Shown here in pieces: positions 9,722 through 38,583 of a DNA stretch of 64,000 bases. The stretch's first letter is position 1. Every line of letters begins with the position of its first letter. The DNA is taken from contig NZ_JBEWSZ010000005.1 in NCBI RefSeq assembly GCF_040537815.1, forward strand, positions 1 through 64,000. Direction: 5' to 3'. The DNA is from Mesorhizobium shangrilense. GTDB taxonomy: Bacteria; Pseudomonadota; Alphaproteobacteria; Rhizobiales; Rhizobiaceae. The notes beneath the pieces are model-generated. The model saw only the letters and a list, made by a program, of their open reading frames with translations. It ran no database searches and had not been told where the DNA came from. The position numbers and the translations under genes were made by a program.

Positions 9722-9746
9722 GGAACGCCCGGGCAATCGCGGCGTT
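9722..9746 (+). promoter_or_regulatory. Predicted EcfG promoter for 9777 gene
   Basis: GGAAC at 9722-9726 and CGTT at 9743-9746 with 16 nt between match the known alphaproteobacterial EcfG consensus exactly. The -10 element ends 30 nt before the start codon of the small gene at 9777. This is the outlying member of a set otherwise found at 28-37.2 kb. Confidence 0.75.
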
Positions 9747-25594: not shown

Positions 25595-27217
25595 TTGAAG
25601 AAATTCTTTCCGATCGTTGCCTTCATCGCCGTCGCACTGATCAGCCTGACGATGGCCGGGTTCGCCTATTTCGCCACACAGGAAGCGGCGCGCATCAAGT
25701 TCGAGGCGGCGGCCGACGATGCGCTCAACCGGATCGAAAGCCGCATCGACCTGCATCTCTCCTTGCTGCGTTCGACCCAGGCGCTGTTCGACGCCCGCAA
25801 CGGCGACATTTCACAGAACGAATTCAAGGCGTTCTTCAAGGCGCTCGACGTCGACAACAATTTCGCCGGCCTGCGCGGCATAGGCTTCCTCAGGCTGGTG
25901 AAGGCTGGTGACGAGGCTGCGGTTGAACGCGATATCCTGCGCGACCAGGGTGTGGCCCATGCGGTTTATCCGGATACGACGCTGCCCTGGCGCGCGCCCA
26001 TCGTCCTGTTCGAGCCGCTGGATCCTTCCAACCGGTCCAGTATCGGCTACGACATGTTCACCGAACCGGTGCGGCGCGAGGCGATCGAGAAGGCCATGGC
26101 CGACGATCAGCAGCACGCCAGCGGTCTCGTGCAACTCGGCCAGGGCACCGGCGCGGCGCAGGTTTTCACAGGCTTCCTGGTCTTTGTGCGGCTCAATGTC
26201 GAAACAGCGCCGGACGTCATCAACGCGTCGAGGTCCTCGACAGCCGGTTTTCTCTATGCCGCCTTTCGCGCCGAGGACCTGTTCCAGGTCGCGCTCAGCC
26301 GAGTGCCGCTGCTGCCGGTCAATACCGAGATTTATGATGGCGCGGTGAAGGCCGAGAATCTTTTGTTCCGGTCGGAAACGCCGCCTGTTTCCCTGTTCGG
26401 GGACAGGCTTCTGGTCACCCGCAAGATCATGGTGGCCGGCCGGCCATGGACCGTCCAGTTCCGGCCGACAAGCGCCTTCTCGCAACCATCCTCGCGCGCC
26501 ATTCCCGTCATGCTTGGATTGTTCGGGCTGTTGCTGGCTGGCGCCATCGCCCTGGTGGCGCGCTATCAGGAGCGTGCCTATGACGCTGTCTCGCTGCTGC
26601 ACGAGACGACCGAAAAGAGCCTGCAGGAAAAGGATTTGATGCTGCAGGAGATGAAGCATCGCATCAAGAATTCGATTACACGGGTTCTGGCGATCGCGCG
26701 CCAGACGGCGTCGCGCGCCGCCGACGTCAACGAGTTCTCATCGTCCTTCTCCGCCCGGCTGCAGGCGATGGCCGCTTCGCAGGACATGCTGACGCGCTCG
26801 CGGTGGCAGAAGGCCGATCTTGGTGACCTCCTGCGCATCGAACTTGGCCAGGTGTTCGGCAAGGAACTTCCCGAAGGACTTCTGTCGGGGCCGGAGGTGC
26901 AGCTCGACGAGACGACGACGCAGGCGCTCGGCCTGACCTTTCACGAACTGGCGACGAACGCGCTGAAATATGGCGAGGCCGGCAATTCCGTAGGTGCGCT
27001 GAAAGTCGACTGGTCGCTCGAAGGGCATGGGCGCGACAGGACGCTGGCCCTCAATTGGCGGGAAGCCGGGCAGAAGAAACTGGAAATGCCAACCAAGACC
27101 GGTTTTGGCACCAAGCTGATCGACCTCAACGTGACGCGCGAATTGCGCGGCACGATCAAGCGCGATTTTCATGCCAATGGTCTGACTGTGGAAATAAGGA
27201 TTCCGCTGACGGCTTAA
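25595..27217 (+). CDS. Membrane CHASE-domain HWE/HisKA_2 sensor kinase
   Basis: 540 residues. TM1 (about 5-28) and TM2 (about 303-323, VMLGLFGLLLAGAIALVARY) flank a periplasmic CHASE domain with GLRGIGFLRLVKAGDEAAVE and YPDTTLPWRAPIVLFEPLDP. The cytosolic part has the HisKA_2-type phosphorylation block LQEMKHRIKNSITRVLAIAR (His355) and an ATPase domain with FHELATNALKYGEAG. Kinases of this class commonly feed PhyR, encoded 4 kb away (inference). The only start in frame is TTG at 25595, since a stop lies at 25559. No EcfG site precedes it. Confidence 0.88.
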   Translation: MKKFFPIVAFIAVALISLTMAGFAYFATQEAARIKFEAAADDALNRIESRIDLHLSLLRSTQALFDARNGDISQNEFKAFFKALDVDNNFAGLRGIGFLRLVKAGDEAAVERDILRDQGVAHAVYPDTTLPWRAPIVLFEPLDPSNRSSIGYDMFTEPVRREAIEKAMADDQQHASGLVQLGQGTGAAQVFTGFLVFVRLNVETAPDVINASRSSTAGFLYAAFRAEDLFQVALSRVPLLPVNTEIYDGAVKAENLLFRSETPPVSLFGDRLLVTRKIMVAGRPWTVQFRPTSAFSQPSSRAIPVMLGLFGLLLAGAIALVARYQERAYDAVSLLHETTEKSLQEKDLMLQEMKHRIKNSITRVLAIARQTASRAADVNEFSSSFSARLQAMAASQDMLTRSRWQKADLGDLLRIELGQVFGKELPEGLLSGPEVQLDETTTQALGLTFHELATNALKYGEAGNSVGALKVDWSLEGHGRDRTLALNWREAGQKKLEMPTKTGFGTKLIDLNVTRELRGTIKRDFHANGLTVEIRIPLTA

Positions 27218-27709: not shown

Positions 27710-28036
27710 TTATTGTTGGCTAAGATAGTCTTTTTCGGGACGCGTCCCGCTGGATGCCAGCAGCAGATTGGAAATCTCGAGGGAGGCATCAAGCGTCCCG
27801 TCGGGTCGCACGTTCCACGCGATCTTGTTGTAATCATCCTCCAGCGCCGGATCGACCGGCAGGCATTTCGCAACGATATGCTCAGCCTGGCCCTGGACAT
27901 CGCCCAAGGCGAAGGGCCGTTCGGCGGTACATTCGGCAGCCGTCTCAAAAATGCTCACCGGAACGGACAATTCGCGGCACTCGGTCATGTTGCTTGAACA
28001 GCCAATAACGAGCAGCAAGGCGGCGATGTGTTCCAT
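27710..28036 (-). CDS. Stress-regulated small lipoprotein/secreted protein
   Basis: 108 residues from ATG 28036. A short hydrophobic leader MEHIAALLLVIGC ends in a Cys that could be a lipobox. The mature part has conserved-looking SVPVSIFETAAECTAERPFA and AEHIVAKCLPVDPALEDDYN. An exact EcfG promoter sits 25 nt before the start, so transcription is expected under general stress. The biochemical role is unknown. Confidence 0.65.
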   Translation of the reverse strand: MEHIAALLLVIGCSSNMTECRELSVPVSIFETAAECTAERPFALGDVQGQAEHIVAKCLPVDPALEDDYNKIAWNVRPDGTLDASLEISNLLLASSGTRPEKDYLSQQ

Positions 28037-28060: not shown

Positions 28061-28085
28061 AACGACTCAAAACCGCCAAAGTTCC
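28061..28085 (-). promoter_or_regulatory. Predicted EcfG promoter for 28036 gene
   Basis: On the minus strand GGAAC (28081-28085) is followed after 16 nt by CGTT (28061-28064), an exact consensus match, 25 nt before the start codon. Confidence 0.8.
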
Positions 28086-28168
28086 TGCGGTAGCAAGCTA
28101 GTCAACGAATAATTGGACGCCGGTTACACGCACTGCCGCCAACGCATGCCGCCGCTCCTGTCCCGCAA

Positions 28169-28342
28169 TCAGAACAGCTGGAAGGCTGCCACCAATAGGA
28201 CCGCCGCGATCAGTGCGAATGCGGCGAGGCGGAGAGCGAGGTGGGAGGTTCGTGGCGCGGGTGAGGCAGGTAATTCCGGGTCCTGAAACTCGCCCATCGA
28301 AACGCGGGCGGCCTGTTCCAGTCTGTTCATGTCGGCAACCAT
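28169..28342 (-). CDS. Small membrane protein under stress control (57 aa)
   Basis: About 57 residues, start chosen at ATG 28342 because GGGGAGG lies at proper distance; ATGs at 28351 and 28330 are alternatives. A charged N-terminus (NRLEQAARVSMGEFQDPE) precedes a single C-terminal membrane helix (ALRLAAFALIAAVLLVAAFQ). An exact EcfG promoter lies 36 nt upstream. The function is unknown; such small single-helix proteins are frequent in general stress regulons. Confidence 0.65.
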   Translation of the reverse strand: MVADMNRLEQAARVSMGEFQDPELPASPAPRTSHLALRLAAFALIAAVLLVAAFQLF

Positions 28343-28377
28343 CAAAACCATTCCTCCCCTACCGCGCTGCGAATCGG

Positions 28378-28402
28378 AACGTCCAGAGGACAGGCAGGTT
28401 CC
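28378..28402 (-). promoter_or_regulatory. Predicted EcfG promoter for 28342 gene
   Basis: Minus-strand GGAAC (28398-28402), 16-nt spacer, CGTT (28378-28381). Exact consensus, 36 nt before the chosen start. Confidence 0.8.
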
Positions 28403-28482
28403 AGCGATATCTGGGAAATACAGTGTGGGATGTTATGGTAAATAGCCGGTTAAGGTTTGCGTGACGCCGGGTGTCCGCCCAG

Positions 28483-29514
28483 TCAGTCTGTCTCGAAATT
28501 GCCGTGGGGAACGACGAGGCGGTATTCGAGGCGGCCAGCCGTGATTTCAAGCGTTGCCGTGCCATTCAGCGATGCCGGCACGACCCGCTCGAGGGCGACG
28601 CTGCCAAAGCGTTTCTCGCTGCGCTGATTGTCATTGGCCCCGATCGCCTCGGCCCAGGTCAATGACAGGGCGGCTTCACCGGCGGAAACGGCCATGAGAT
28701 TGGCGGTCACCTCGACAAAGCCGCCTGGCCGCGACAGGGCGCCATAGCTGACGGAATTGACGGCGAGCTCATGCATGGCCAAGCCGATATGCAGGGCCGC
28801 ATTGGGATTGAGATATGGATTGACCCCCTGGAAACGCAAGCTGCGCACGGGATCAGCTCCGTAGCGGCCGACCTGGCCGGACACCAGTTCGCGAAGAGCC
28901 GCCCCGCGCCAGTTGGAGGACGTCACCAGATCCTGGGACGACGCGAGCGATTGCAGCCGGCCACGAAAGCGCGTCAGGAAATCGCCGATGGTGTCAGAGT
29001 AGCGGCCGGTCTGGGTGGCGATGCTCTGGATGATGGCCAGGAGATTTTTCGAGCGATGGCTGACTTCGCGCAACAGCGTCTTCAGGGTCTGTTCGCGACG
29101 CTTCTGCTCGGTCGTTTCGACCATTGTGGTGACAACGCCCTGCACTGTGCCGCTGTCGCCATGGTCGGCGTCTATCCATACCTGGAACCAGCGAACGCCG
29201 TCTTCGGCGGGAACGCTGAGTTCGAGACGCTCCGCGTTTCCGGACGCCATGACGTTGCGTTTGGTCACGTCGATGCGCTCTGCCTGGGCCAGCGGCAGGA
29301 TGCCGTTGCTGTCAGCGCTGTCGGCCCATGGCGCACGCATGTTGCGCGCCCATACGGTCTTCAACTCGCGATCCTGGTAAAGTACGGAAATGCCGGCATT
29401 GTGCAGCGCGTGCAGGAGGGCCCGGCCGAGCTGCATTCCACTTTCGGCGGGATGCAAGGCGATGATCTCATCGCTCTGCCTGCCCTCTTTGATGTCTCCG
29501 GCCTTGGAACGCAT
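28483..29514 (-). CDS. Soluble PAS-HWE histidine kinase, stress-regulated
   Basis: 343 residues, no membrane helix. A PAS-like sensor (GISVLYQDRELKTVWARNMR to VTTMVETTEQ) is followed by the HWE-type phosphorylation block LLREVSHRSKNLLAIIQSIA with His153 and an ATPase domain with GLAMHELAVNSVSYGALS. HWE kinases are the usual inputs to PhyR. Its own gene carries an exact EcfG promoter ending 29 nt before the start, implying feedback. No receiver domain is attached. Confidence 0.88.
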   Translation of the reverse strand: MRSKAGDIKEGRQSDEIIALHPAESGMQLGRALLHALHNAGISVLYQDRELKTVWARNMRAPWADSADSNGILPLAQAERIDVTKRNVMASGNAERLELSVPAEDGVRWFQVWIDADHGDSGTVQGVVTTMVETTEQKRREQTLKTLLREVSHRSKNLLAIIQSIATQTGRYSDTIGDFLTRFRGRLQSLASSQDLVTSSNWRGAALRELVSGQVGRYGADPVRSLRFQGVNPYLNPNAALHIGLAMHELAVNSVSYGALSRPGGFVEVTANLMAVSAGEAALSLTWAEAIGANDNQRSEKRFGSVALERVVPASLNGTATLEITAGRLEYRLVVPHGNFETD

Positions 29515-29542
29515 CGCTTGTTATGTCCACCCAGTTCAGCTG

Positions 29543-29567
29543 AACGGCCCACTGACAAATGGGTTCC
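29543..29567 (-). promoter_or_regulatory. Predicted EcfG promoter for HWE kinase
   Basis: Minus-strand GGAAC (29563-29567), 16-nt spacer, CGTT (29543-29546). Exact consensus, 29 nt before the kinase start. A second nearby GGAAC (29594-29598 region) has no CGTT at the right distance. Confidence 0.78.
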
Positions 29568-29699
29568 CAAGAAGGAGCAGGTTCCGGTCCCCCAAAAGCG
29601 GTCCGCCGAGCGGCGTCCTGTGAAGGATACCGCCCGGCGGTGGCTGGAAACCGTTTGAGGGGTGCGGCTTCCAGTGTTCGCTCAAGGTCCGCCTAGTCG

Positions 29700-29867
29700 T
29701 CACGCGCGCTTGAACAAGCCTGCGAGAAGCGAAATGACCAGGAAAGCGAGAAAGATGTAGAACAGGATCTGCGCTATCCCGGCCGATGAACCGACGATGC
29801 CTCCAAACCCGAGCGCGCCCGCGATGATCGCGACGACAAGAAAAACAAGCGCCCAGTAGAGCATCAT
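29700..29867 (-). CDS. DUF1328 small membrane protein (55 aa)
   Basis: The product opens [20 protein letters not shown] and continues through [20 protein letters not shown] to LAGLFKRA. The two hydrophobic helices and the near-invariant YWALVFLV / FGGIA-type pattern identify the DUF1328 (YtjA-like) family. The start is preceded by GAAGGAG. An exact EcfG promoter lies 27 nt upstream. Members are repeatedly stress-induced in bacteria, but the molecular role is unknown. Confidence 0.9.
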
Positions 29868-29893
29868 CCATCTCCTTCAAATGGTGTCATAAA

Positions 29894-29918
29894 AACGTGG
29901 TTCGCCGCCGTTTGTTCC
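29894..29918 (-). promoter_or_regulatory. Predicted EcfG promoter for DUF1328 gene
   Basis: Minus-strand GGAAC (29914-29918), 16-nt spacer, CGTT (29894-29897). Exact consensus, 27 nt before the start. Confidence 0.82.
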
Positions 29919-30064
29919 ACCATTGGCCGAAAAAGACGAGCCTGCAAATCGCCCGAGAAGCCTGATGGGCACGGAAAATTCTCGGCGATGCCGACCAATC
30001 ATGAAGAAGGCCGCCCGATGCAGTGCATCGAGCGGCCCTTTTCATGCATTCGATGGCAGGAAGG

Positions 30065-30859
30065 CTATGCCGCGGCCTTCGCCTGCCGGTCGAAAAACAG
30101 CGCCTGGCTGATCAAGGCCTTGACCATATCCGGGTTGAACGGCTTGGTGACCAGGAACGCTGGCTCAGGCCGCTCGCCAGTCAGCAAGCGTTCGGGGAAG
30201 GCGGTGATGAAGATCACCGGCACGGAGGTGGATGAGAGGATCTCGTTGACGGCTTCGATGCCGGAGCTGCCGTCGGCAAGCTGGATGTCGGCCAGAATCA
30301 TCTTCGGTCGTGTCTTGCCAAACAGCGTCACCGCCTCGGCATGGGTGCGCGCCGTTCCGACCACGCGATGGCCAAGACTTTCGACCATTTCCTCTATGTC
30401 CATGGCGATCAGCGGCTCGTCTTCGATGATCAGCACATCGGTCGCCACCTGGCGGGAAATCTCGTTGCTGGCCTGGGCCAGAAGCTCCGAGAATTCGGCG
30501 TCGCCGACATCGAGAATCTCCGCTGCCTCGTCTTCGGTGAATCCTTCGACCGCGACCAGCAGGAAAGCCTGGCGGGGGCGGGGGGCGATGGCATTGAGGT
30601 TTGCGGCCGCACGCTGTTCCCAGGCGGACTGGGCATGCTCCTGCGGAACGCGGATGGCGACCGAGGTGAAGAGCTTGGCGAATATCTTGTAGAGTGCGAT
30701 GCGGTCGTTCGATGCTTCCGGAAAGATATCGACATCGGTGATGAGGGCTTCAAGCATCGCGGCGACCAGCGCGTCGCCACTCTCCTGCGACCCGGAGACT
30801 GCCCGCGAAAAGCGGCGCAGGAACGGCAGGTGTGGAGCGATGGTTGCGGATAAACTCAT
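30065..30859 (-). CDS. phyR: General stress response regulator PhyR (anti-anti-sigma)
   Basis: 264 residues from ATG 30859. The N-terminal half is a sigma-factor-like domain (LPFLRRFSRAVSGSQESGDA; ARPRQAFLLVAVEGFTEDEA-type sequence), and the C-terminal half is a receiver (VLIIEDEPLIAMDIEEMVES, phospho-acceptor Asp191 in ILADIQLADG, conserved Lys in LVTKPFNPDM). When phosphorylated, PhyR's sigma-like domain captures NepR and frees EcfG. The divergent nepR-ecfG operon and its own EcfG promoter complete the known feedback loop. Confidence 0.97.
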   Translation of the reverse strand: MSLSATIAPHLPFLRRFSRAVSGSQESGDALVAAMLEALITDVDIFPEASNDRIALYKIFAKLFTSVAIRVPQEHAQSAWEQRAAANLNAIAPRPRQAFLLVAVEGFTEDEAAEILDVGDAEFSELLAQASNEISRQVATDVLIIEDEPLIAMDIEEMVESLGHRVVGTARTHAEAVTLFGKTRPKMILADIQLADGSSGIEAVNEILSSTSVPVIFITAFPERLLTGERPEPAFLVTKPFNPDMVKALISQALFFDRQAKAAA

Positions 30860-30931
30860 GATGAACGTCTCCCTCAGATGACGTGGTTGCATAGATTGCA
30901 GGTCAAGCTGATTGCAAGCCCCGGAACAACA

Positions 30932-30956
30932 AACGCCGTGTTTTGGAAAAAGTTCC
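30932..30956 (-). promoter_or_regulatory. Predicted EcfG promoter for phyR
   Basis: Minus-strand GGAAC (30952-30956), 16-nt spacer, CGTT (30932-30935). Exact consensus, about 73 nt before the phyR start. Its -35 lies only 10 nt from that of the divergent nepR promoter. Confidence 0.88.
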
Positions 30957-30966
30957 GGGCATCTGC

Positions 30967-30991
30967 GGAACTAATATGCGGGGAAGGCGTT
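30967..30991 (+). promoter_or_regulatory. Predicted EcfG promoter for nepR-ecfG
   Basis: GGAAC (30967-30971), 16-nt spacer, CGTT (30988-30991). Exact consensus, 90 nt before nepR, back to back with the phyR promoter. Confidence 0.9.
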
Positions 30992-31080
30992 TGAGGTCGG
31001 GATGGGCGACCAGACGAGGGTGCCGCTTGCCTTGTATTGTGTAGTATGGCGGCCTGGTAGCTGGGGGAATAAAGGGCGAA

Positions 31081-31284
31081 ATGAAGGATATGATGAAACA
31101 TACAATGGCTGGCGCCGTCGAAAGGCGCCGGGATGGTTCCGGCGACCCGCTTGGGCCGAACTCGGAAATTGGTCGTAAACTCAAGCAGTATTATGACGAG
31201 CTGGTCTCCGACGATGTGCCGGATCGCTTCGCCCAGCTGCTCAGCCAGCTGGAACAGGCAGAACCCGCGCAGAAGAAGGACTGA
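31081..31284 (+). CDS. nepR: Anti-sigma factor NepR
   Basis: 67 residues. The NepR core is visible as IGRKLKQYYDELVSDDVPDR followed by FAQLLSQLEQAE. NepR binds and silences EcfG until phosphorylated PhyR displaces it. The gene starts after AAAGGGCGAA and stops 3 nt before ecfG, so anti-sigma and sigma factor are made together. Short N-terminal alternatives (ATG at 31090 or 31093) exist. Confidence 0.93.
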   Translation: MKDMMKHTMAGAVERRRDGSGDPLGPNSEIGRKLKQYYDELVSDDVPDRFAQLLSQLEQAEPAQKKD

Positions 31285-31287
31285 GGC

Positions 31288-31839
31288 ATGGCTGCCGTCT
31301 CTCAGGGCTTCAAGACCGATCTGCTCGGATCGATCCCCAGTCTGCGCGCCTTTGCAGTGTCGCTGACGCAGAATGCCGACAAGGCCGACGACCTGGTGCA
31401 GGAGACGCTGGTCAAGGCGTGGGACAAGCATGAAAGCTTCCAGCCGGGCACCAATCTCAAGGCCTGGCTGTTCACCATCCTGCGCAACGAATTCTATTCG
31501 CAGATGCGCAAGCGCGGCCGCGAAGTGCAGGATAGCGATGGTATCATGACGGCAAGGCTTGCCGTTCATCCGGCCCAGCACGGTCAGCTTGACCTGAAGG
31601 ATTTTCGCGGCGCGCTCGAACAATTGCCCGAGGACCAGCGCGAAGCCATCATCCTCATCGGCGCGTCGGGTTTCTCCTATGAGGAAGCCGCCGAGATTTG
31701 CGGATGCGCGGTCGGAACAATCAAGAGCCGCGTCAGCCGAGCCCGCACGCGGCTGCAGGAAATCCTGAAGATTTCCGGTGAGGACGAGTACGGCCCCGAT
31801 GCGATCTCGGCCCAGGTGATGGGCACGCCGGGAAGCTGA
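31288..31839 (+). CDS. ecfG: General stress ECF sigma factor EcfG
   Basis: 183 residues with ECF regions 2 and 4: SLTQNADKADDLVQETLVKA and FQPGTNLKAWLFTILRNEFY, then LPEDQREAIILIGASGFSYE and AAEICGCAVGTIKSRVSRAR. It directs RNA polymerase to GGAAC-N16/17-CGTT promoters of the general stress response. The many exact copies of that motif in this window are its expected targets. Co-transcribed with nepR. Confidence 0.95.
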   Translation: MAAVSQGFKTDLLGSIPSLRAFAVSLTQNADKADDLVQETLVKAWDKHESFQPGTNLKAWLFTILRNEFYSQMRKRGREVQDSDGIMTARLAVHPAQHGQLDLKDFRGALEQLPEDQREAIILIGASGFSYEEAAEICGCAVGTIKSRVSRARTRLQEILKISGEDEYGPDAISAQVMGTPGS

Positions 31840-31906
31840 GGCGTGACGGAGAAGGCGGGATCGGGATCGTGCCGCTCAGCAATCAAGATATGTCGGTTAT
31901 GGGGTG

Positions 31907-32320
31907 TCAGTTGGCGGGCTTCCGGCCGCAGGCGGCCGCCACGGCCTCGACAAGGTCCTCTCCCGAATAGGGCTTCGTGACCAGCCTGATGCCGGGAAAG
32001 GACGCCTTGATCTCGTCAACGTCCGAATAACCCGAGGCGAAGACGAAAGGCAGGCCGGTTTCCCGCAAACCCGAGGCGAAATCAAGCGTGGAGGCCCCGC
32101 CCAGCATGAGATCGACAATGGCGGCGTCGAATCGTCCAGCAACGTCCTGCTTGTCAATATCCGCCAGATCGCGGGCGATAACCACCTCGCCGGCGCCATA
32201 GTCGCGGCACAGCTGCTCGACATCCATGGCGATCAGGAATTCATCCTCCAAGACCAGAATTCGCAGTCCGTCAAGCAATGGTGGCACGTAGCAATGTCTC
32301 CTTGAAACCAAGGGAGTCAT
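31907..32320 (-). CDS. Single-domain response regulator
   Basis: About 137 residues from ATG 32320 (ATG 32344 gives 145). A receiver only: LRILVLEDEFLIAMDVEQLC supplies the acidic pocket, DAAIVDLMLGG the phospho-acceptor Asp and RLVTKPYSGEDL the conserved Lys. Without an output domain it probably acts by protein contact or as a phosphate sink. Position beside phyR-nepR-ecfG and HWE kinases suggests a role in the same network, as for other single-domain receivers in rhizobia (inference). Confidence 0.83.
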   Translation of the reverse strand: MTPLVSRRHCYVPPLLDGLRILVLEDEFLIAMDVEQLCRDYGAGEVVIARDLADIDKQDVAGRFDAAIVDLMLGGASTLDFASGLRETGLPFVFASGYSDVDEIKASFPGIRLVTKPYSGEDLVEAVAAACGRKPAN

Positions 32321-32373
32321 GATCGTTATTTGGCATCCTGTCATTTAAAAAAGACATGCCGGGCGCAGATGGT

Positions 32374-32398
32374 GGAACCACCGCCGCCGCGACGCGTT
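32374..32398 (+). promoter_or_regulatory. Predicted EcfG promoter for Crp/Fnr gene
   Basis: GGAAC (32374-32378), 16-nt spacer, CGTT (32395-32398). Exact consensus, 49 nt before the start codon at 32447. Confidence 0.8.
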
Positions 32399-32446
32399 GG
32401 AAATCAACTCTCTCGAAGAGGGGCAACGCTTTCGAAGAGGGTCGAA

Positions 32447-33208
32447 ATGTCGGGCCAGAACGGTCGTTCCTTCTCCAGCCGCCAATATCCTTGCGAAAAC
32501 TGTCCGCTTCGGCCGCTGCCGGTGTTCCGTGAGTTCGAAAAGCAGGAACTCGTCTTCATCAGCAAGTTCAAGAAGGGTGAGCTTGCCGTCGACAAGGGCG
32601 CCACGGTGCTGGTCGAGGGCAGTCACAGCGCCCACCTTTATACGGTGCTTTCGGGCTGGGCCTTCCGCTACAAGCTGTTGTCGGATGGCCGCCGCCAGAT
32701 TCTCAACTATCTGATGCCGGGCGATCTCATCGGCCTGCAAGGCAGCGTGATGGGCGAGATGCAGCATTCCGTCGAGGCCCTGTCGCCGATGCTGCTGTGC
32801 GTCTTCGAGCGCGAGTCCCTGCACGAACTCTACCGCAATCACCCCGGCCTCGCCTACGACATCACCTGGATCGCGTCGCGAGAGGAGCGGATGCTCGATG
32901 AAAACCTGCTCAGCGTCGGTCGTCGCAGCGCCATCGAGCGCGCCGCCTACCTCATCTCCTTCATAGGCAGCCGGGCCAAGGTGGTCGGCGTCAACGGCAA
33001 GCAATCCGTCCGGATCCCGATCACGCAGCAGCACATAGCCGATACGCTCGGCCTCTCCCTGGTTCACACCAACAAGACGATCCGCAAGCTGATGGATCGA
33101 AAGCTGATCCTCTGGCGCGACGGCGGCTGCGAGGTTGTCGACAATGAAGGGCTCAAGGAACTCGCCCATTGGGAGGGATTGACCGAGGGTCGTCGGCCGT
33201 TGATCTGA
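32447..33208 (+). CDS. Crp/Fnr-family transcriptional regulator
   Basis: 253 residues from ATG 32447. A Cys-containing N-terminus (YPCENCPLRPLPVF) precedes a cyclic-nucleotide-binding-like beta barrel (SHSAHLYTVLSGWAFRYKLL, NYLMPGDLIGLQG) and a winged helix-turn-helix (ITQQHIADTLGLSLVHTNKT). CxxC near the start resembles the FNR/FixK group but I see no full four-Cys cluster. An exact EcfG promoter lies 49 nt upstream, making this a likely secondary regulator within the stress response. Confidence 0.9.
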   Translation: MSGQNGRSFSSRQYPCENCPLRPLPVFREFEKQELVFISKFKKGELAVDKGATVLVEGSHSAHLYTVLSGWAFRYKLLSDGRRQILNYLMPGDLIGLQGSVMGEMQHSVEALSPMLLCVFERESLHELYRNHPGLAYDITWIASREERMLDENLLSVGRRSAIERAAYLISFIGSRAKVVGVNGKQSVRIPITQQHIADTLGLSLVHTNKTIRKLMDRKLILWRDGGCEVVDNEGLKELAHWEGLTEGRRPLI

Positions 33209-33309
33209 CGGTGCGCACGTTAACCTGAAGCCAAATCGCGGCTGGACTCGACCGCAGAAACAACCTTTCATCAGACCACTATGATTTCGGGGCTTGGGCC
33301 CGTCGTTTC

Positions 33310-33334
33310 GGAACCTTGGCGTCCATCGAACGTT
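33310..33334 (+). promoter_or_regulatory. Predicted EcfG promoter for DUF883 gene
   Basis: GGAAC (33310-33314), 16-nt spacer, CGTT (33331-33334). Exact consensus, 31 nt before the start at 33365. Confidence 0.83.
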
Positions 33335-33364
33335 TGAAATCAAGCGAACGCAAGGAGTTAAGCA

Positions 33365-33691
33365 ATGGCTACCGCCACCGGAAAAACCGCAAATGAAAGC
33401 CGGACGAACCCAGACCTTGAAGCCGACATCAAGCAGCTCAAGGCCGATATCGAGAAGCTGACCAAGCAATTGGCCAAGACCGGCGAGCATGGCTATGGGA
33501 CAGCCCGTCGCGCGGCGAGCGAAGGTGTCGAGCAATTGCGTGCCCAGGGCGAGGCGGCCTTCGACAATTTGCGCAGCAATGCCAGGGATGTCGAGGCGCA
33601 GCTGCTGGCCAGCGTGCGTGAAAAGCCGGTGACGTCGCTGGCGATCGCGGCCGGCGTCGGCTTCCTGTTCGCGCTTCTCGCCCGGCGCTAA
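33365..33691 (+). CDS. DUF883 (ElaB/YqjD-type) membrane-anchored protein
   Basis: 108 residues from ATG 33365 after AAGGAG. A long amphipathic coiled helix (LEADIKQLKADIEKLTKQLA; EGVEQLRAQGEAAFDNLRSN) leads to a C-terminal membrane anchor (SLAIAAGVGFLFALLARR), the ElaB/YqjD architecture. E. coli relatives bind stationary-phase ribosomes and associate with the membrane. An exact EcfG promoter precedes it, and it forms an operon with the membrane protein starting 6-12 nt after its stop. Confidence 0.88.
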   Translation: MATATGKTANESRTNPDLEADIKQLKADIEKLTKQLAKTGEHGYGTARRAASEGVEQLRAQGEAAFDNLRSNARDVEAQLLASVREKPVTSLAIAAGVGFLFALLARR

Positions 33692-33696
33692 TTCCC

Positions 33697-34161
33697 GTGG
33701 GAATGCTGGCATCGCTTATTTCGGGTTTCGCCTCCGGCGAGACCGTGGCCGCCATACGCCGCGCTCGCACCGCCGCGATCGTCTATGCGGTTGCCGCCCT
33801 GGCGGCGCTCTGCGGTCTCGGGTTCCTGGTCGGAGCGGCCTATATCTGGACGGCCGGCCGCTACGGATCGATGGCCGCCTCGCTGGGCTTTGGGGCCGGC
33901 TTCCTGGTCATCGCCGGGCTTATACTGCTCGTCTATCAGCTAGCTTCAGGCGCGCGCGCCCGGCGCCGCGCGAAACGGCGCGACGCGGACTTGAAGGCGA
34001 TCGGCATTACAGCAGCACTTGCCGTGTTGCCGACGCTGCTCAAGGGGAAGGGCGGTCTGGGCGTCATTCTCGGGCCGGCGGTGGCGCTTGTCGCCTACGC
34101 CATCTACCGTGAAAACGTGAAGCCCGGCACGGATGGCCGTGATGATGGCGACGCGAAATAG
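33697..34161 (+). CDS. Integral membrane protein, phage-holin-like/DUF1469-like
   Basis: About 154 residues, start GTG 33697 or ATG 33703. Two helices form a hairpin (IVYAVAALAALCGLGFLVGA; ASLGFGAGFLVIAGLILLVY), followed by a basic loop RARRRAKRRDADLK and a further hydrophobic stretch. It is co-transcribed with the DUF883 gene, a pairing common for YqjD-YqjE-type genes, where the second gene is of the DUF1469/holin-like group. The family name is inferred from that context. It should share the EcfG promoter at 33310. Confidence 0.7.
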   Translation: MGMLASLISGFASGETVAAIRRARTAAIVYAVAALAALCGLGFLVGAAYIWTAGRYGSMAASLGFGAGFLVIAGLILLVYQLASGARARRRAKRRDADLKAIGITAALAVLPTLLKGKGGLGVILGPAVALVAYAIYRENVKPGTDGRDDGDAK

Positions 34162-34167
34162 CGCGGG

Positions 34168-35775
34168 CTATTTCGACAAATCTTCCAGCGGCATGGATAT
34201 CTCGGCATAGACGCCCTCCGGCCTGAACTCATGCGTCACCTCGCTGGAGATGACCTTGGCCAGGCTGCGACGGATCAGGATCGAACCGAAGCCGTGGCGT
34301 TCCGGCGGGGTGACTTCAGGGCCGCCACTTTCGCGCCAGGTCAGCACCAGGCGCCGGTCGCCCTTCTTGCCTTGCGTCTTCCAGTCGAGATCCACCTTGC
34401 CGGCCGCCACGGACAGCGATCCGTATTGCAGCGCGTTGCTGGCCAGTTCATGCAGGATCAGGCCAAGTCCGACGGCCTGGTCGGGTGACAGCAACAGGTC
34501 GGCGCCGGAGATTTTCATGCGCGGCTGCGCGGCGTTGTCAAACGGCTTCACTTCGATCTGCACGAGTTCGCGGATGCCGATGCCGCGCCACTCGCGATCC
34601 GACAAAAGACTATGGGCAACGCCAAGCGCTTGCAGCCGGGCGCCGAAGGCCTCGAGAAATTCACTCGGCTGGCGTGCGTGCCGGACCGTCTGCGTTGCCA
34701 GTGCCTGGACTGTCGCCAGCGTGTTCTTGACGCGGTGATTGAGCTCGCGCAGCAAAAGCCGTTGCCGTTCGTCGCCAAGCTTGCGCTCGGTGATATCGTA
34801 ATTGACGCCGAAGATCAGCGTCGGCTTGCCGTCGTCATCGCGTTCGATGACGCGCCCGCGCGTGGCGAGCCAGCGCGGCGGGGAGAAGCCTTTCACCCGG
34901 TATTCGCCGAAATAGTCGTCGCTGCCGGTCAGGGCGTCACGGAAGCGGGTTTCAGTCTGATAGACGTCGCGTGGATCGATGGCGGTCAGGATATCGCGGG
35001 CCCGCAACCGGGTCGAACGCGGCAGGTTGAACAGTTCGGACATCAAGACATCGCATTCGATCATTTCGGCGCGGATATCCCAGGCCCAACTGGCGAGCGA
35101 AGCCGCGTCGAGCGCGATGGCGCGCCGCTTTTCCTCGCGCGCCAGTGCTGCCTCGGCGATGGCGCCGCTGCGGGTCGCGTCCTTCAGCATGAACAGGCTG
35201 GCGGCGAGGCCGGCCAGCGCCTTCAATTGATCGAGCTTGGCGGCGGACGGGAACGCGTGCGGCTTGCGGTCGAGTACGCACAGCGTGCCGATGCGCGCGC
35301 CGGCGACCACCATCGGCGCCCCGGCATAGAAACGGACGTGGTGCTTGCCGGTGACCAGTGGATTGGTCATGAAACGTGGGTCGAGCGTGGCGTCGGTCAC
35401 CACCAGCGGTTCATCGCCCGCGGCGATTGCATGGGCACAGAACGATATGTCGGTCGTCGTTTCGGTTTCGTCGATCCCGACGCAGGACTTGAACCATTGC
35501 CGGTCCAGATCGAGCAGCGTAACAAGCGCGATCGGTGCTTGCATCACTGACGCCGCGAGATTGCTGATGCGGTCGAAATCAGGGTCGGCCGCCGTGTCCA
35601 GCATCTCCAGCCCGTGCAGCACGGACAGCCGATCCCTGTCACTTACCGCGCGAAAAATCTCGGCCGGCAGGCCCGGCGCGCCTTCAATCGTATTGTCCAC
35701 CAGATCCCCAATGCCCCGTCTTGCGGTCGTTCCTTGTTGCCCCTGCTGGCCGGCGAGAGGTCGTCCCCCAAGCAT
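34168..35775 (-). CDS. Soluble GAF-PAS-HWE histidine kinase
   Basis: 535 residues if it starts at ATG 35775, chosen because GAAGG precedes it. A GAF domain (about 45-190: FDRISNLAASVMQAPIALVT, RIGTLCVLDRKPHAF) is followed by a PAS domain (about 225-340) and the HWE block LLRELNHRVKNTLATVQALA with His347; the ATPase part has LILHELASNALQYGSL. This is the third HWE/HisKA_2 kinase in the stress island and a candidate PhyR kinase. No EcfG motif is seen before it. Confidence 0.88.
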   Translation of the reverse strand: MLGGRPLAGQQGQQGTTARRGIGDLVDNTIEGAPGLPAEIFRAVSDRDRLSVLHGLEMLDTAADPDFDRISNLAASVMQAPIALVTLLDLDRQWFKSCVGIDETETTTDISFCAHAIAAGDEPLVVTDATLDPRFMTNPLVTGKHHVRFYAGAPMVVAGARIGTLCVLDRKPHAFPSAAKLDQLKALAGLAASLFMLKDATRSGAIAEAALAREEKRRAIALDAASLASWAWDIRAEMIECDVLMSELFNLPRSTRLRARDILTAIDPRDVYQTETRFRDALTGSDDYFGEYRVKGFSPPRWLATRGRVIERDDDGKPTLIFGVNYDITERKLGDERQRLLLRELNHRVKNTLATVQALATQTVRHARQPSEFLEAFGARLQALGVAHSLLSDREWRGIGIRELVQIEVKPFDNAAQPRMKISGADLLLSPDQAVGLGLILHELASNALQYGSLSVAAGKVDLDWKTQGKKGDRRLVLTWRESGGPEVTPPERHGFGSILIRRSLAKVISSEVTHEFRPEGVYAEISMPLEDLSK

Positions 35776-35800
35776 GGAACCTTCGTAGCGGGGAACAGTT
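35776..35800 (+). promoter_or_regulatory. Near-consensus EcfG promoter for 35858 gene
   Basis: GGAAC (35776-35780), 16-nt spacer, AGTT (35797-35800): one mismatch in the less conserved first base of the -10. It lies 58 nt before a small membrane protein gene. Confidence 0.55.
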
Positions 35801-35857
35801 ACCCGAACATGTTTTTTCGAACACGCCTGCCGGCGCCAAGCAATACTGAGGCCGAAC

Positions 35858-36031
35858 ATGACCAAAATCATCCCTGAAGACAAAGCCCGTCAGGGGCGCT
35901 GGGGGTGGCACGGCTTTCGCATCCTCATTGCGGCGCTGCTCCTGGCCTTCATCGCGTGGGGCGCGGCGAAAATCTATGGCGAGGTGATCAAGTCGCCGAC
36001 GACCCAGCAAAATAGCATCCCCCAAGGCTAG
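35858..36031 (+). CDS. Small single-helix membrane protein (57 aa)
   Basis: 57 residues: a charged N-terminus (MTKIIPEDKARQGRWGWHGF), one membrane helix (RILIAALLLAFIAWGAAKIY) and a short polar tail. The gene lies between two convergent or divergent larger genes and has a near-consensus EcfG promoter 58 nt upstream. No family is recognised. It resembles the stress-controlled small membrane protein encoded at 28169-28342 in size and topology only. Confidence 0.6.
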   Translation: MTKIIPEDKARQGRWGWHGFRILIAALLLAFIAWGAAKIYGEVIKSPTTQQNSIPQG

Positions 36032-36054
36032 GGGGTCCACGGAACCGGATCGCA

Positions 36055-36975
36055 TCATGCGGCCTCGGCTTGAGCATTGCGCGCGGGCACCAGCACATTG
36101 AGTGCGCCGGGGTGGATTTTGATCGTCGTTTCCTGATCAAGCTTGACCAGTTCGCCATCGATCACCGCGCGGTATTTTTTCGCTGGCGAATGGACTTTCA
36201 CCACCACCCGCTCGGCCTGGTGAATCTCGACATGTTCGTTATCGCGCCACTTGCCGCGCGCCATGTTGAAGAAGAATTTGACCAGGTGGCGGCGCTGCTC
36301 GGCCACCGTGACATAGATGCCAAGCACGCCGCCCGCGGGATCGTCGGCGTAGGGCAGGTGGCCTTCCCCAAACAGATTGTTGGTAATGCCGATGGCGGTG
36401 GTCCGTGTGACGATCTCGACTTCGCCCACCGTCAGCGTCACCTTCATTGCCTGTGGGTCGTTGATCGTTGCCCAGGCAGCCTGTGCCGAGGCTCTTATCT
36501 TTCCCAGACGTGAACCGAACTCCAGTTTCTGGCGACGCTGCACCATCTTGGCATGCATGCCGATCGAGAACTGATGCACGAACGGACGACCGTTCGCTGT
36601 GGCGATATCCACCGCCGTCACGTCGGCGTCGACAAAGGATTCCAGTGCGGCATCGAGCGTATGGGGAATGCCGAGCCCGCGCGCGAACAGGTTCATGGTG
36701 CCTGCCGGCAAAATCGCCAACGCCTTGTTCTTGCCCATCAGCCGGGCCGCCGCCGCCGAAATGGTGCCGTCGCCTCCACCGGCCAGCACAATATCGATCC
36801 CGCGCCGCGACGCCGCACTGTCCAGCGCCGCTACAACATTCTTGCCGGCGACGACATCGAGATCGATGGAGTGACCGGCTGCCTCAAGGGTCTGGCGCAT
36901 GCGCTGGGAGAAACCGGCGATGTCGGTCGTGCGCAAGGTGCCACCGTCCTGGTTCAGCACCGCCGCAAACCGCAT
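36055..36975 (-). CDS. Diacylglycerol/lipid kinase-family protein
   Basis: 306 residues. The catalytic core shows VLAGGGDGTISAAAARLMGK and AILPAGTMNLFARGLGIP, the glycine-rich nucleotide site of DgkB/YegS-like lipid kinases, then a beta-sandwich C-terminal domain. It should phosphorylate a lipid alcohol at the membrane; the exact substrate is unknown. An exact EcfG promoter lies 60 nt before the start, so lipid metabolism may be linked to the stress response. Confidence 0.9.
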   Translation of the reverse strand: MRFAAVLNQDGGTLRTTDIAGFSQRMRQTLEAAGHSIDLDVVAGKNVVAALDSAASRRGIDIVLAGGGDGTISAAAARLMGKNKALAILPAGTMNLFARGLGIPHTLDAALESFVDADVTAVDIATANGRPFVHQFSIGMHAKMVQRRQKLEFGSRLGKIRASAQAAWATINDPQAMKVTLTVGEVEIVTRTTAIGITNNLFGEGHLPYADDPAGGVLGIYVTVAEQRRHLVKFFFNMARGKWRDNEHVEIHQAERVVVKVHSPAKKYRAVIDGELVKLDQETTIKIHPGALNVLVPARNAQAEAA

Positions 36976-37034
36976 AGTTCGCTCCGCATTTTGACATGAC
37001 CCACCAGGCCGGGACTTGCCCAGCCACAGGCTGA

Positions 37035-37059
37035 AACGGACGTTGTGGAAAAAGGTTCC
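37035..37059 (-). promoter_or_regulatory. Predicted EcfG promoter for lipid kinase
   Basis: Minus-strand GGAAC (37055-37059), 16-nt spacer, CGTT (37035-37038). Exact consensus, 60 nt before the start at 36975. Confidence 0.78.
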
Positions 37060-37148
37060 GCTCGCAGGGGTATATCGAGACGCGAATTCCCCTGCGCCCG
37101 GGCGTGGATTTCGCTACCGAGCCGGCGGTCTGCCGACGGTCTTTTGTC

Positions 37149-37173
37149 GGAACAACAGCGCGGTCACGACGTT
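37149..37173 (+). promoter_or_regulatory. Predicted EcfG promoter for PRC-barrel gene
   Basis: GGAAC (37149-37153), 16-nt spacer, CGTT (37170-37173). Exact consensus, 94 nt before ATG 37267, and divergent from the lipid-kinase promoter 90 nt away. Confidence 0.78.
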
Positions 37174-37266
37174 GTGAATGCGCAGAGGATGCCGCGTCCG
37201 GTCTTCCCAGCGACGGTTTAACCGGACGCGGTGCGCATGAAATCACGCACGAGGGAGATACCTATC

Positions 37267-38583
37267 ATGATCCGCAACCTTTTAGCCACGACCGCGCTCG
37301 CAACGCTGATAGCGACGGGTGCATATGCCCAGACAGCCACAACGCCGGCACCAGCCCAGACGCCGGCAGTCCAGAATGCGGCTCCCGCCGCACAGATGCA
37401 GCGCGCCGAGGGCAGCCTCGTCACCAACATCATTGGCACGAGCGTCTACAATGGTAGCGGCGACAGTGCTGAGAATATCGGCAAGGTCAGCGACGTCGTG
37501 TTCGACAAGGAAGGCCAGGTGAAATCCGTTGTCATCGGCGTCGGCGGCTTCCTTGGCGTCGGGGCCAAGAAAGTCGCCTTCGACTACAGCAAGGTGCAGT
37601 GGGCCGAGAAGAACGGCGACCGCTGGCTGGTGGCGCCGACGACGAAGGAGCAACTGACGGCGCAGGCCGAATTCGACGCCAAGCCGTATGCTCCGGCGCC
37701 GGCAACGCCAGCTACGGCGCCGGCGGCGGGCACGGATGCCGCGCAAGCTCCCGCCGCCGCGCCTGCCGAGCCGGTGAAGCGTGCCGAGGGCAATCTCGCG
37801 ACGAACATCGTTGGTCAGAAAGTCTACGATAGCACCAGCGATGACGCCCAGAACATCGGCAGTATCAACGACATCGTTCTGGCCAAGGACGGCAAGGCCG
37901 AATCCCTGGTCATTGGGGTCGGCGGCTTCCTAGGCATGGGGGCCAAGAACGTCGCCTTTGATTTCGGCAAGGCCGAATGGGCCGAGAAGAACGGCGAGCG
38001 TTGGCTGGTCGCGCAGACCACCAAGGAACAGCTGCAGGCGCAGCCGGATTTTAACCGCAGGGCCTATGACCCAGCTCCGGCGGTGACCGCTTCCAACGGT
38101 GCCACAGCTCCGGCTCCAATGAACGCGGTGCCGTCCGACAGCTCGCCTCCGGCCGTGGCCCCTGCTGACAAAACAGCGCAGGCGCCAGCCGCGGCCACGC
38201 CTACCATGTCTCCCGACCAGATGCAGACTGCCGCCATAGACAAATCGGGGCTGAATGAAATGCCGATCGGCGAAATCCGCGGCGATGATCTGAAGGGCAC
38301 GACCGTCTACGGCGCCAACGACGCCAAGGTGGGCGAGATCGGCGACGTCGTGCTGACGCCCGATACCAAACCCGACGCGGTGATCGTCGACGTCGGGGGT
38401 TTCCTGGGCATCGGCGAGAAGGAAGTGGCCGTTAGCATGGATAATCTGAAGTTCATGACCGACAAGGACGGCAAGAAGTATCTCTACACGACCTTCACCA
38501 AGGAGCAGCTCGAAGCGCAAGCGGCCTATGACAAGAGCAGCTACACGCAAAATCGCGCCAAGCAGCGACTGATCGTGCAGTAG
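37267..38583 (+). CDS. Exported protein with three PRC-barrel domains
   Basis: 438 residues from ATG 37267. A signal peptide (MIRNLLATTALATLIATGAY, cleavage after YAQ region) is followed by three PRC-barrels at about 47-130, 170-260 and 345-430, separated by Ala/Pro-rich linkers. Units 1 and 2 are close copies (VVIGVGGFLGVGAKKVAFDY versus VIGVGGFLGMGAKNVAFDFG, then WAEKNG-RWLVA-TTKEQL). Unit 3 differs (VIVDVGGFLGIGEKEVAVSM). PRC-barrels are small all-beta adaptor domains; an exported triple form suggests an envelope role, which is inference. Confidence 0.85.
   Translation: MIRNLLATTALATLIATGAYAQTATTPAPAQTPAVQNAAPAAQMQRAEGSLVTNIIGTSVYNGSGDSAENIGKVSDVVFDKEGQVKSVVIGVGGFLGVGAKKVAFDYSKVQWAEKNGDRWLVAPTTKEQLTAQAEFDAKPYAPAPATPATAPAAGTDAAQAPAAAPAEPVKRAEGNLATNIVGQKVYDSTSDDAQNIGSINDIVLAKDGKAESLVIGVGGFLGMGAKNVAFDFGKAEWAEKNGERWLVAQTTKEQLQAQPDFNRRAYDPAPAVTASNGATAPAPMNAVPSDSSPPAVAPADKTAQAPAAATPTMSPDQMQTAAIDKSGLNEMPIGEIRGDDLKGTTVYGANDAKVGEIGDVVLTPDTKPDAVIVDVGGFLGIGEKEVAVSMDNLKFMTDKDGKKYLYTTFTKEQLEAQAAYDKSSYTQNRAKQRLIVQ

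Follow-up and report, generated by a model that had tools for sequence, protein, structure and literature searches.

A region of about 9.1 kb (positions 28061–37173) in the DNA analysed here, a 64-kb stretch of Mesorhizobium shangrilense (assembly GCF_040537815.1) that comprises the first 64 kb of contig NZ_JBEWSZ010000005.1 (contig C5; hereafter the window), is probably a hub of the general stress response. In this hub a PhyR–NepR–EcfG switch would be joined by a local EcfG-type regulon, transcription of the two divergent switch units would alternate as set by the gap between their promoters, and phyR would serve as the anchor of the cluster. The switch itself is of a known kind; what is new is the quantified clustering of promoter-like sites around phyR and the fixed length of the gap. 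In particular, the locus encodes a protein with the domains of PhyR (the sole PhyR match of the genome at E ≤ 1e-30), a nepR gene that lies 3 nt in front of the sigma factor gene ecfG, divergent units preceded by EcfG-type promoters, and a kinase with an HRXXN box (Table 1).

A pattern scan of the window identified ten exact GGAAC-N16-CGTT sites within the region, together with a near-match (AGTT) at 35776 and an exact outlier at 9.7 kb, all with the 16-nt spacer that an initial annotation, made from the sequence alone, had described; exact GGAAC-N17-CGTT sites were absent from the 64 kb. Matches with spacers of 15–18 nt numbered 12, compared with 1.86 (s.d. 1.29) in 100 dinucleotide shuffles. 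The distance from the end of a site to the start codon, given in that annotation as 25–94 nt, was 24–93 nt across the cluster when preferred starts were used (28036 for the lipoprotein-like gene, 32447 for the Crp gene and, for the PRC gene, an internal ATG 36 nt past the GTG), and the gene names it had proposed largely agreed with Pfam, the DUF883-like protein scoring below cut-off. The genome-wide comparison of density that it had suggested was made with a scan of the 8.35-Mb genome (49 contigs). Exact matches numbered 83 with N16 and 41 with N17, whereas spacers of 18–27 nt gave 525 in total, or 52.5 each, so that the excess of N16 sites over background, judged from the other spacers, is about 30 sites. 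(Note that a reversed-pattern control outnumbers the motif, 151 versus 83, and that genome-wide counts by themselves would therefore show no signal; the other spacers, which do show one, are the fairer control because the reversed pattern differs in dinucleotide make-up.) Ten of the 83 N16 sites fall in the 9.1 kb around phyR and nepR-ecfG, which amounts to 1.10 sites per kb inside the cluster versus 0.0087 per kb outside it, a ratio of 125. The next-densest 9.14-kb window of the genome holds 3 sites, so that no second cluster of comparable size was found in this genome, and in 20,000 random placements of 83 sites the window maximum never exceeded 5. In one relative (G114) there are 8 sites at the phyR locus and 4 in each of the next windows.

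The best named matches to the PhyR of this cluster come from Mesorhizobium. We compared the cluster with the phyR loci of named relatives (80 loci, 1.62 Mb), in which N16 sites numbered 622, compared with 5–87 for every other spacer from 8 to 25 nt. Ten of the eleven cluster sites, the near-match at 35776 included, are promoter-like elements of the form GGAAC-N16/17-CGTT that precede a start codon and are retained across the genus (Table 1). At the 57-aa gene, the AGTT form occurs in 0 of 69 relatives, CGTT being present instead, with an exact counterpart of the site in 63 of the 69 (64 when N16 or N17 is counted). For eight of the nine conserved exact sites, the pair of boxes was retained above each of 111 other base combinations, that is, pairs of 5 and 4 bases at the same distance within the same upstream region. 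Moreover, the spacer can be 16 or 17 nt with both boxes kept (31 versus 36 relatives for the lipoprotein-like gene, 42 versus 21 for the lipid kinase), a pattern that would be expected from selection on a promoter. Among control genes of these loci, exact N16 or N17 sites were found upstream of the gene for the CHASE-HWE kinase in 0 of 71 relatives, for a Gly-zipper protein in 1 of 73, for ecfG in 0 of 79, for the response regulator RR145 in 1 of 79, for TM154 in 0 of 78, for the GAF-HWE kinase in 0 of 48 and for a sulfatase in 0 of 67. The membership listed in the initial annotation thus stood for ten of eleven sites and not for the site at 28378, which may be a recent gain or a chance match, nor for the outlier (9722–9746, forward strand). 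The latter has the form GGAACG, whose G at that base is found in 3% of the conserved set, and lies within overlapping open reading frames (ORFs) on both strands; we rejected it as a cluster member and regard it as a probable chance match.

The phyR and nepR-ecfG promoters stand with their -35 boxes back to back. Among the 75 relatives with exact sites for both, the gap between the boxes most often measures 9 bp (51 relatives), less often 8 bp (14) or 10 bp (5), and is 18, 19 or 22 bp in the remaining 5; despite this constant length, its sequence occurs in 60 different variants. Where no exact pair is present (five loci), the -35 boxes are still 7–8 bp apart, as judged by eye. By comparison, the gap between the lipid kinase and PRC promoters in the same loci is 25–120 bp (mean 66, s.d. 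22, n = 60) and never 8–10 bp, and the distances from site to start codon vary among relatives, from 16 to 55 nt for phyR and from 68 to 93 nt for nepR. Because length is kept while sequence is free, the gap is hardly an operator and rather appears to be a geometric constraint. The footprints of RNA polymerase (RNAP) are such that two holoenzymes would overlap at such a gap, from which we infer that occupancy of the two promoters would be mutually exclusive and would balance PhyR against NepR-EcfG. Autoregulation is thought to maintain the stoichiometry of the three proteins, according to a passage of PMC8103513, and the fixed gap would be a means of keeping that stoichiometry at the level of DNA. 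Helical phasing of the wider gaps was not significant near phyR (p 0.07–0.09), nor for other pairs in a set of genomes drawn across the order (p 0.17–0.65) or in Mesorhizobium (p 0.28–0.88). Three Aminobacter loci (L103, L104 and L106) carry an additional divergent pair, with a gap of 9–10 bp, upstream of DUF883; at phyR/nepR in these loci the nepR site is inexact and both -35 boxes are present.

Clustering of the sites extends across the order. Our order set comprised 75 other genomes with PhyR, of 119 drawn, from 26 families and including three Mesorhizobium genomes (PhyR was also detected in 16 further genomes beyond the order), and sites were counted 10 kb to each side of the true phyR centres (G089 and G118 being off-centre, and two copies flanking the middle in G091). 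Exact N16 sites within 10 kb of phyR numbered 235, compared with an expectation of 14.6 derived from the rate of each genome. Enrichment was significant after correction in 32 of the 75 genomes, and in 17 when the central 0.7 kb on either side was excluded, and at least three local sites were present in 41 of the 75. Divergent pairs near phyR had a gap of 8–10 bp in 12 of 22 cases, in 8 families, the pairs having been picked by closeness to phyR and not each confirmed as nepR, with G118 (7 bp) included. The description of the clustering as unusual is only partly supported: it is by far the densest of its genome, but it is conserved through Mesorhizobium and a weaker form of it, with turnover in gene content, is common in the order.

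Plain inheritance, in which stress genes have simply stayed in their ancestral order and closeness is of no advantage, is a possible if somewhat doubtful explanation of the clustering. Gene order is mostly retained in Mesorhizobium and Aminobacter (five of six loci inspected have the order found here), and local sites recur before genes for DUF1328 (10 families), PRC (8), DUF883 (6) and Crp (5). However, among the 289 N16 or N17 sites in the loci retrieved for 60 of the 75 order genomes, 78 precede phyR, nepR or ecfG, 82 precede homologues of cluster genes, 125 precede other genes and 4 precede no ORF, compared with about 20 expected before unlike genes or no ORF from other spacers. Since so many local sites precede unlike genes, the gene content turns over and the enrichment persists. 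The products of these unlike genes (123 sites) include CsbD (9), AI-2E transporters (8), DUF892 (3) and ferritin-like proteins (3); in this Pfam tally the longest ORF per site was used, and the sites that lack an ORF (four), one site of family f1 and one ORF of more than 1500 aa were excluded.

We regard a second explanation, that EcfG is made and released near its own gene so that nearby promoters respond first or more strongly and selection gathers targets there, as unlikely. Consistent with it, in 71 genomes outside the family the density of sites drops as one moves away from phyR, from 0.74 per kb within 0.7 kb to 0.20 at 0.7–1.5 kb, 0.13 at 1.5–3 kb, 0.12 at 3–5 kb, 0.10 at 5–7.5 kb and 0.053 at 7.5–10 kb, with control spacers at 0.006–0.016 per kb. 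However, four genomes (G023, G092, G116 and G100) had no ecfG near phyR, the stretch from G092 stopping at a contig end 1 kb past the middle of phyR, and these few genomes nevertheless keep 2, 1, 2 and 5 N16 sites near phyR, respectively. In none of the four did an unlinked EcfG match of at least 56% identity have an N16 site within 10 kb, the nearest being 14 kb away (G100); two weaker paralogs of 39–43% identity have a site within 4 kb in G023 (C1:404106) and G100 (C1:1075724). A local concentration of the sigma factor is thus disfavoured by these genomes, which come from two families only. In G100, nepR (PF18557) faces phyR across a 9-bp gap though ecfG is elsewhere, and next to phyR there is a DUF1328 gene preceded by a site of its own. 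Site numbers did not differ significantly between genomes with and without a linked ecfG (71 versus 4, p 0.17). Together, these four genomes from two families speak for phyR rather than the sigma factor gene as the anchor, and the description of the regulon as packed around its own sigma factor is less apt than one that places it around phyR.

It is very improbable that a paralogous sigma factor of the extracytoplasmic function (ECF) type reads these promoters instead of EcfG: the genome encodes two more ECF sigma factors, with 37–38% identity, but EcfG is alone in the locus, neither paralog has an exact N16 site within 10 kb, and the motif is identical to the EcfG1 motif published in PMC3892343. 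Chance or an artefact of base composition, which might account for the sites at 28378 and 9722 and could be invoked because the reversed pattern is commoner than the motif, has a negligible likelihood for the set, being excluded by shuffles, other spacers, the scan statistic and conservation, and is refuted for ten of the eleven sites.

These findings lead us to favor a stress-response hub with eleven EcfG-type promoters, from which the genes of the switch would be expressed, as would those for one HWE kinase, a Crp/Fnr regulator and small proteins of the envelope or membrane. By analogy with the known system, under stress HWE kinases would phosphorylate PhyR, PhyR would remove NepR from EcfG, and the freed EcfG would transcribe the units of the cluster together. 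With 8–10 bp between the -35 boxes there would be no room for two RNAP molecules at once, so that initiation would alternate between the unit for the anti-anti-sigma factor and that for the anti-sigma/sigma pair, and the DNA would thereby set the proportions of the components. The neighborhood would be anchored on phyR, with different lineages adding different stress genes. The sites, their density and conservation, the fixed gap of free sequence and the enrichment across the order are observed directly, and the dependence on EcfG, the alternating initiation and the reason for the clustering are features that we infer. That the back-to-back gap is a selected, length-coded device for exclusive occupancy and a set ratio, with phyR as a nucleus at which lineage-specific promoters gather, is a tentative proposal that we put forward with less confidence than the hub itself.

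Several observations weigh against this interpretation. The 80 relatives belong mainly to one genus, so that counts among them are not independent. The site at 28378 is not conserved, being found in 1 of 56 relatives, and shows no retention above other box pairs; likewise the site of the 343-aa HWE kinase (HWE343) is weaker, in that 9% of other box pairs upstream were kept equally often. The RR145 control has four further near-matches in which another base replaces the C of CGTT. In the order set, 10 of the 22 divergent pairs near phyR lack a gap of 8–10 bp, N16 sites are absent from the 10 kb on either side of phyR in 9 of the 75 genomes, and families f28 and f25 have one nearby N16 site in six genomes together. 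In addition, since an exact consensus was found for 19 of 56 down-regulated units in Rhizobium etli, as given in a passage of PMC3892343, the exact consensus under-counts the regulon, and the local share of all EcfG targets is probably smaller than the local share of exact sites. Each of the six f28 and f25 genomes (G028, G065, G096, G025, G062 and G117) has an EcfG match close to phyR; these genomes may use another promoter form.

Among the closest parallels is the ecfG1-phyR-tcrY region of R. etli, in which, according to PMC3892343, phyR is divergent from nepR-ecfG, promoters are of EcfG type, a kinase lies nearby and the EcfG1 motif is the same GGAAC-N16-CGTT; that region also holds a noncoding RNA with the motif. 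Here, unlike in R. etli, the 9.1 kb contain eleven promoter-like sites, of which nine do not belong to the divergent pair, and DUF1328 rather than the kinase is next after phyR. In the known layout both divergent units are self-regulated and a kinase is nearby (PMC8103513, in part). The general stress response of Methylobacterium extorquens involves six ecfG genes, all of them located away from phyR, a layout that G100 resembles while keeping a gap of 9 bp and a DUF1328 site nearby. The EcfG regulons of Sphingomonas melonis (PMC6599016) and Sphingopyxis granuli (PMC7083833) likewise have a GGAAC -35 element; enrichment of sites within 100 bp of starts is described for S. melonis, whose targets include PRC-barrel proteins and regulators of the cAMP-binding type (PMC6599016). 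The passages of these two reports give targets by gene and do not mention clustering at phyR, and we found no description of the fixed gap or of phyR-anchored clustering in the literature searched, which covered few subscription papers.

Partner switches hinge on the ratio of their parts, and a fixed spacing with free sequence, if true, would be a simple means of holding that ratio, one that is testable by altering a single length. As a practical rule, in uncharacterized bacteria of the order a gene that carries the motif and lies within 10 kb of phyR is a good candidate to examine first as a target of the general stress response; such candidates include members of families without known function (DUF1328 and DUF883).

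Table 1. Features of the phyR cluster in the window. Fractions are relatives with an exact N16 or N17 site upstream of the homologous gene, unless stated otherwise.
Feature	Coordinates	Strand	Basis
CHASE-HWE kinase	25595–27217		no exact site in relatives (0/71)
108-aa lipoprotein-like protein	27710–28036	-	ORF, start 28036 preferred; lipobox-like LVIGC by eye
Predicted EcfG-type promoter, lipoprotein-like gene	28061–28085	-	exact N16; 67/68
60-aa small protein, hydrophobic stretch at C-terminus	28169–28351	-	ORF; no Pfam match
Exact N16 site before 60-aa protein	28378–28402	-	1/56; looser forms in 13
343-aa HWE histidine kinase (HWE343), HRSKN box; candidate PhyR kinase	28483–29514	-	PF07536, E 7.6e-23
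Predicted EcfG-type promoter, HWE343	29543–29567	-	exact N16; 55/80
DUF1328 small membrane protein	29700–29867	-	PF07043, E 1.6e-14
Predicted EcfG-type promoter, DUF1328	29894–29918	-	exact N16; 79/80
phyR, response regulator plus sigma-like domain (anti-anti-sigma factor)	30065–30892	-	PF22029, PF22233, PF00072 above cut-off
Predicted EcfG-type promoter, phyR	30932–30956	-	exact N16; 79/80
Gap between phyR and nepR-ecfG -35 boxes	30957–30966	.	10 bp here
Predicted EcfG-type promoter, nepR-ecfG	30967–30991	+	exact N16; 76/80
nepR, anti-sigma factor	31081–31284	+	PF18557, E 9.9e-17, above cut-off
ecfG, general stress sigma factor	31288–31839	+	PF04542, PF08281, PF22029; adjoins nepR, phyR
Single-domain response regulator RR145, between ecfG and crp	31907–32344	-	gene present in 79/80 relatives
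Predicted EcfG-type promoter, Crp/Fnr regulator	32374–32398	+	exact N16; 46/57
Crp/Fnr-family regulator	32447–33208	+	PF00027, PF13545; start 32447 preferred
Predicted EcfG-type promoter, DUF883	33310–33334	+	exact N16; 77/78
DUF883-like protein	33365–33691	+	PF05957, PF19029, both slightly under curated cut-offs
154-aa membrane-like protein (TM154)	33697–34161	+	5-nt gap after DUF883; no Pfam match
GAF-HWE kinase	34168–35883		no exact site in relatives (0/48)
Near-match promoter (AGTT), 57-aa gene	35776–35800	+	CGTT form exact in 64/69
57-aa membrane-like protein	35858–36031	+	ORF; no Pfam match
Diacylglycerol-kinase-like / YegS-like lipid kinase	36055–36975	-	PF00781, PF19279
Predicted EcfG-type promoter, lipid kinase	37035–37059	-	exact N16; 63/66
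Predicted EcfG-type promoter, triple PRC protein	37149–37173	+	exact N16; 64/73
Secreted-looking protein, three PRC-barrel stretches	37231–38583	+	PF05239, three stretches

With respect to individual genes of the cluster, a longer reading of the lipoprotein-like gene (115 aa) had no Pfam match, and TM154 probably shares the DUF883 promoter in one transcript. RR145, which has an exact site in the single relative counted among the controls above (1 of 79), contains the sequence PFVFASGY, one residue off the PFXFATG(G/Y) motif quoted in PMC5964349; a passage of that report describes the FATGUY single-domain regulators MrrA and SdrG as phosphorelay hubs of the same stress response. The three HWE kinases at 25.6–35.9 kb have HRIKN, HRSKN and HRVKN boxes and are among 8 matches genome-wide. 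Of the five HWE kinase matches outside the locus, four lie within 5 kb of an exact N16 site (G000 C1:340567, 460377, 505427 and 516490), and kinase genes and EcfG-type sites therefore coincide elsewhere in the genome too.

When sites of the 80 relatives were aligned, the first base after GGAAC was seldom G and the following two were mainly A or T. An extended -35 element learned from these relatives (no G at bases 1 and 3 after GGAAC, and A or T at base 2) was present in 8 of the 10 exact cluster sites, compared with 26 of the 73 other N16 sites and 8 of the 41 N17 sites, and is a useful refinement of the motif for scans. We inspected 21 of the 26 sites elsewhere that carry it and scanned ten ORFs behind them, chosen by us; these encode two CsbD proteins, two DUF982 proteins, an encapsulated-ferritin-like protein, an AI-2E transporter, a BA14K protein and a DUF1328 protein below cut-off, with two lacking a match. 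The encapsulated-ferritin-like gene (PF22277; L022:1591–1905) begins 65 nt past an exact site that carries this -35 extension, which suggests that an encapsulin cargo may be controlled by EcfG.

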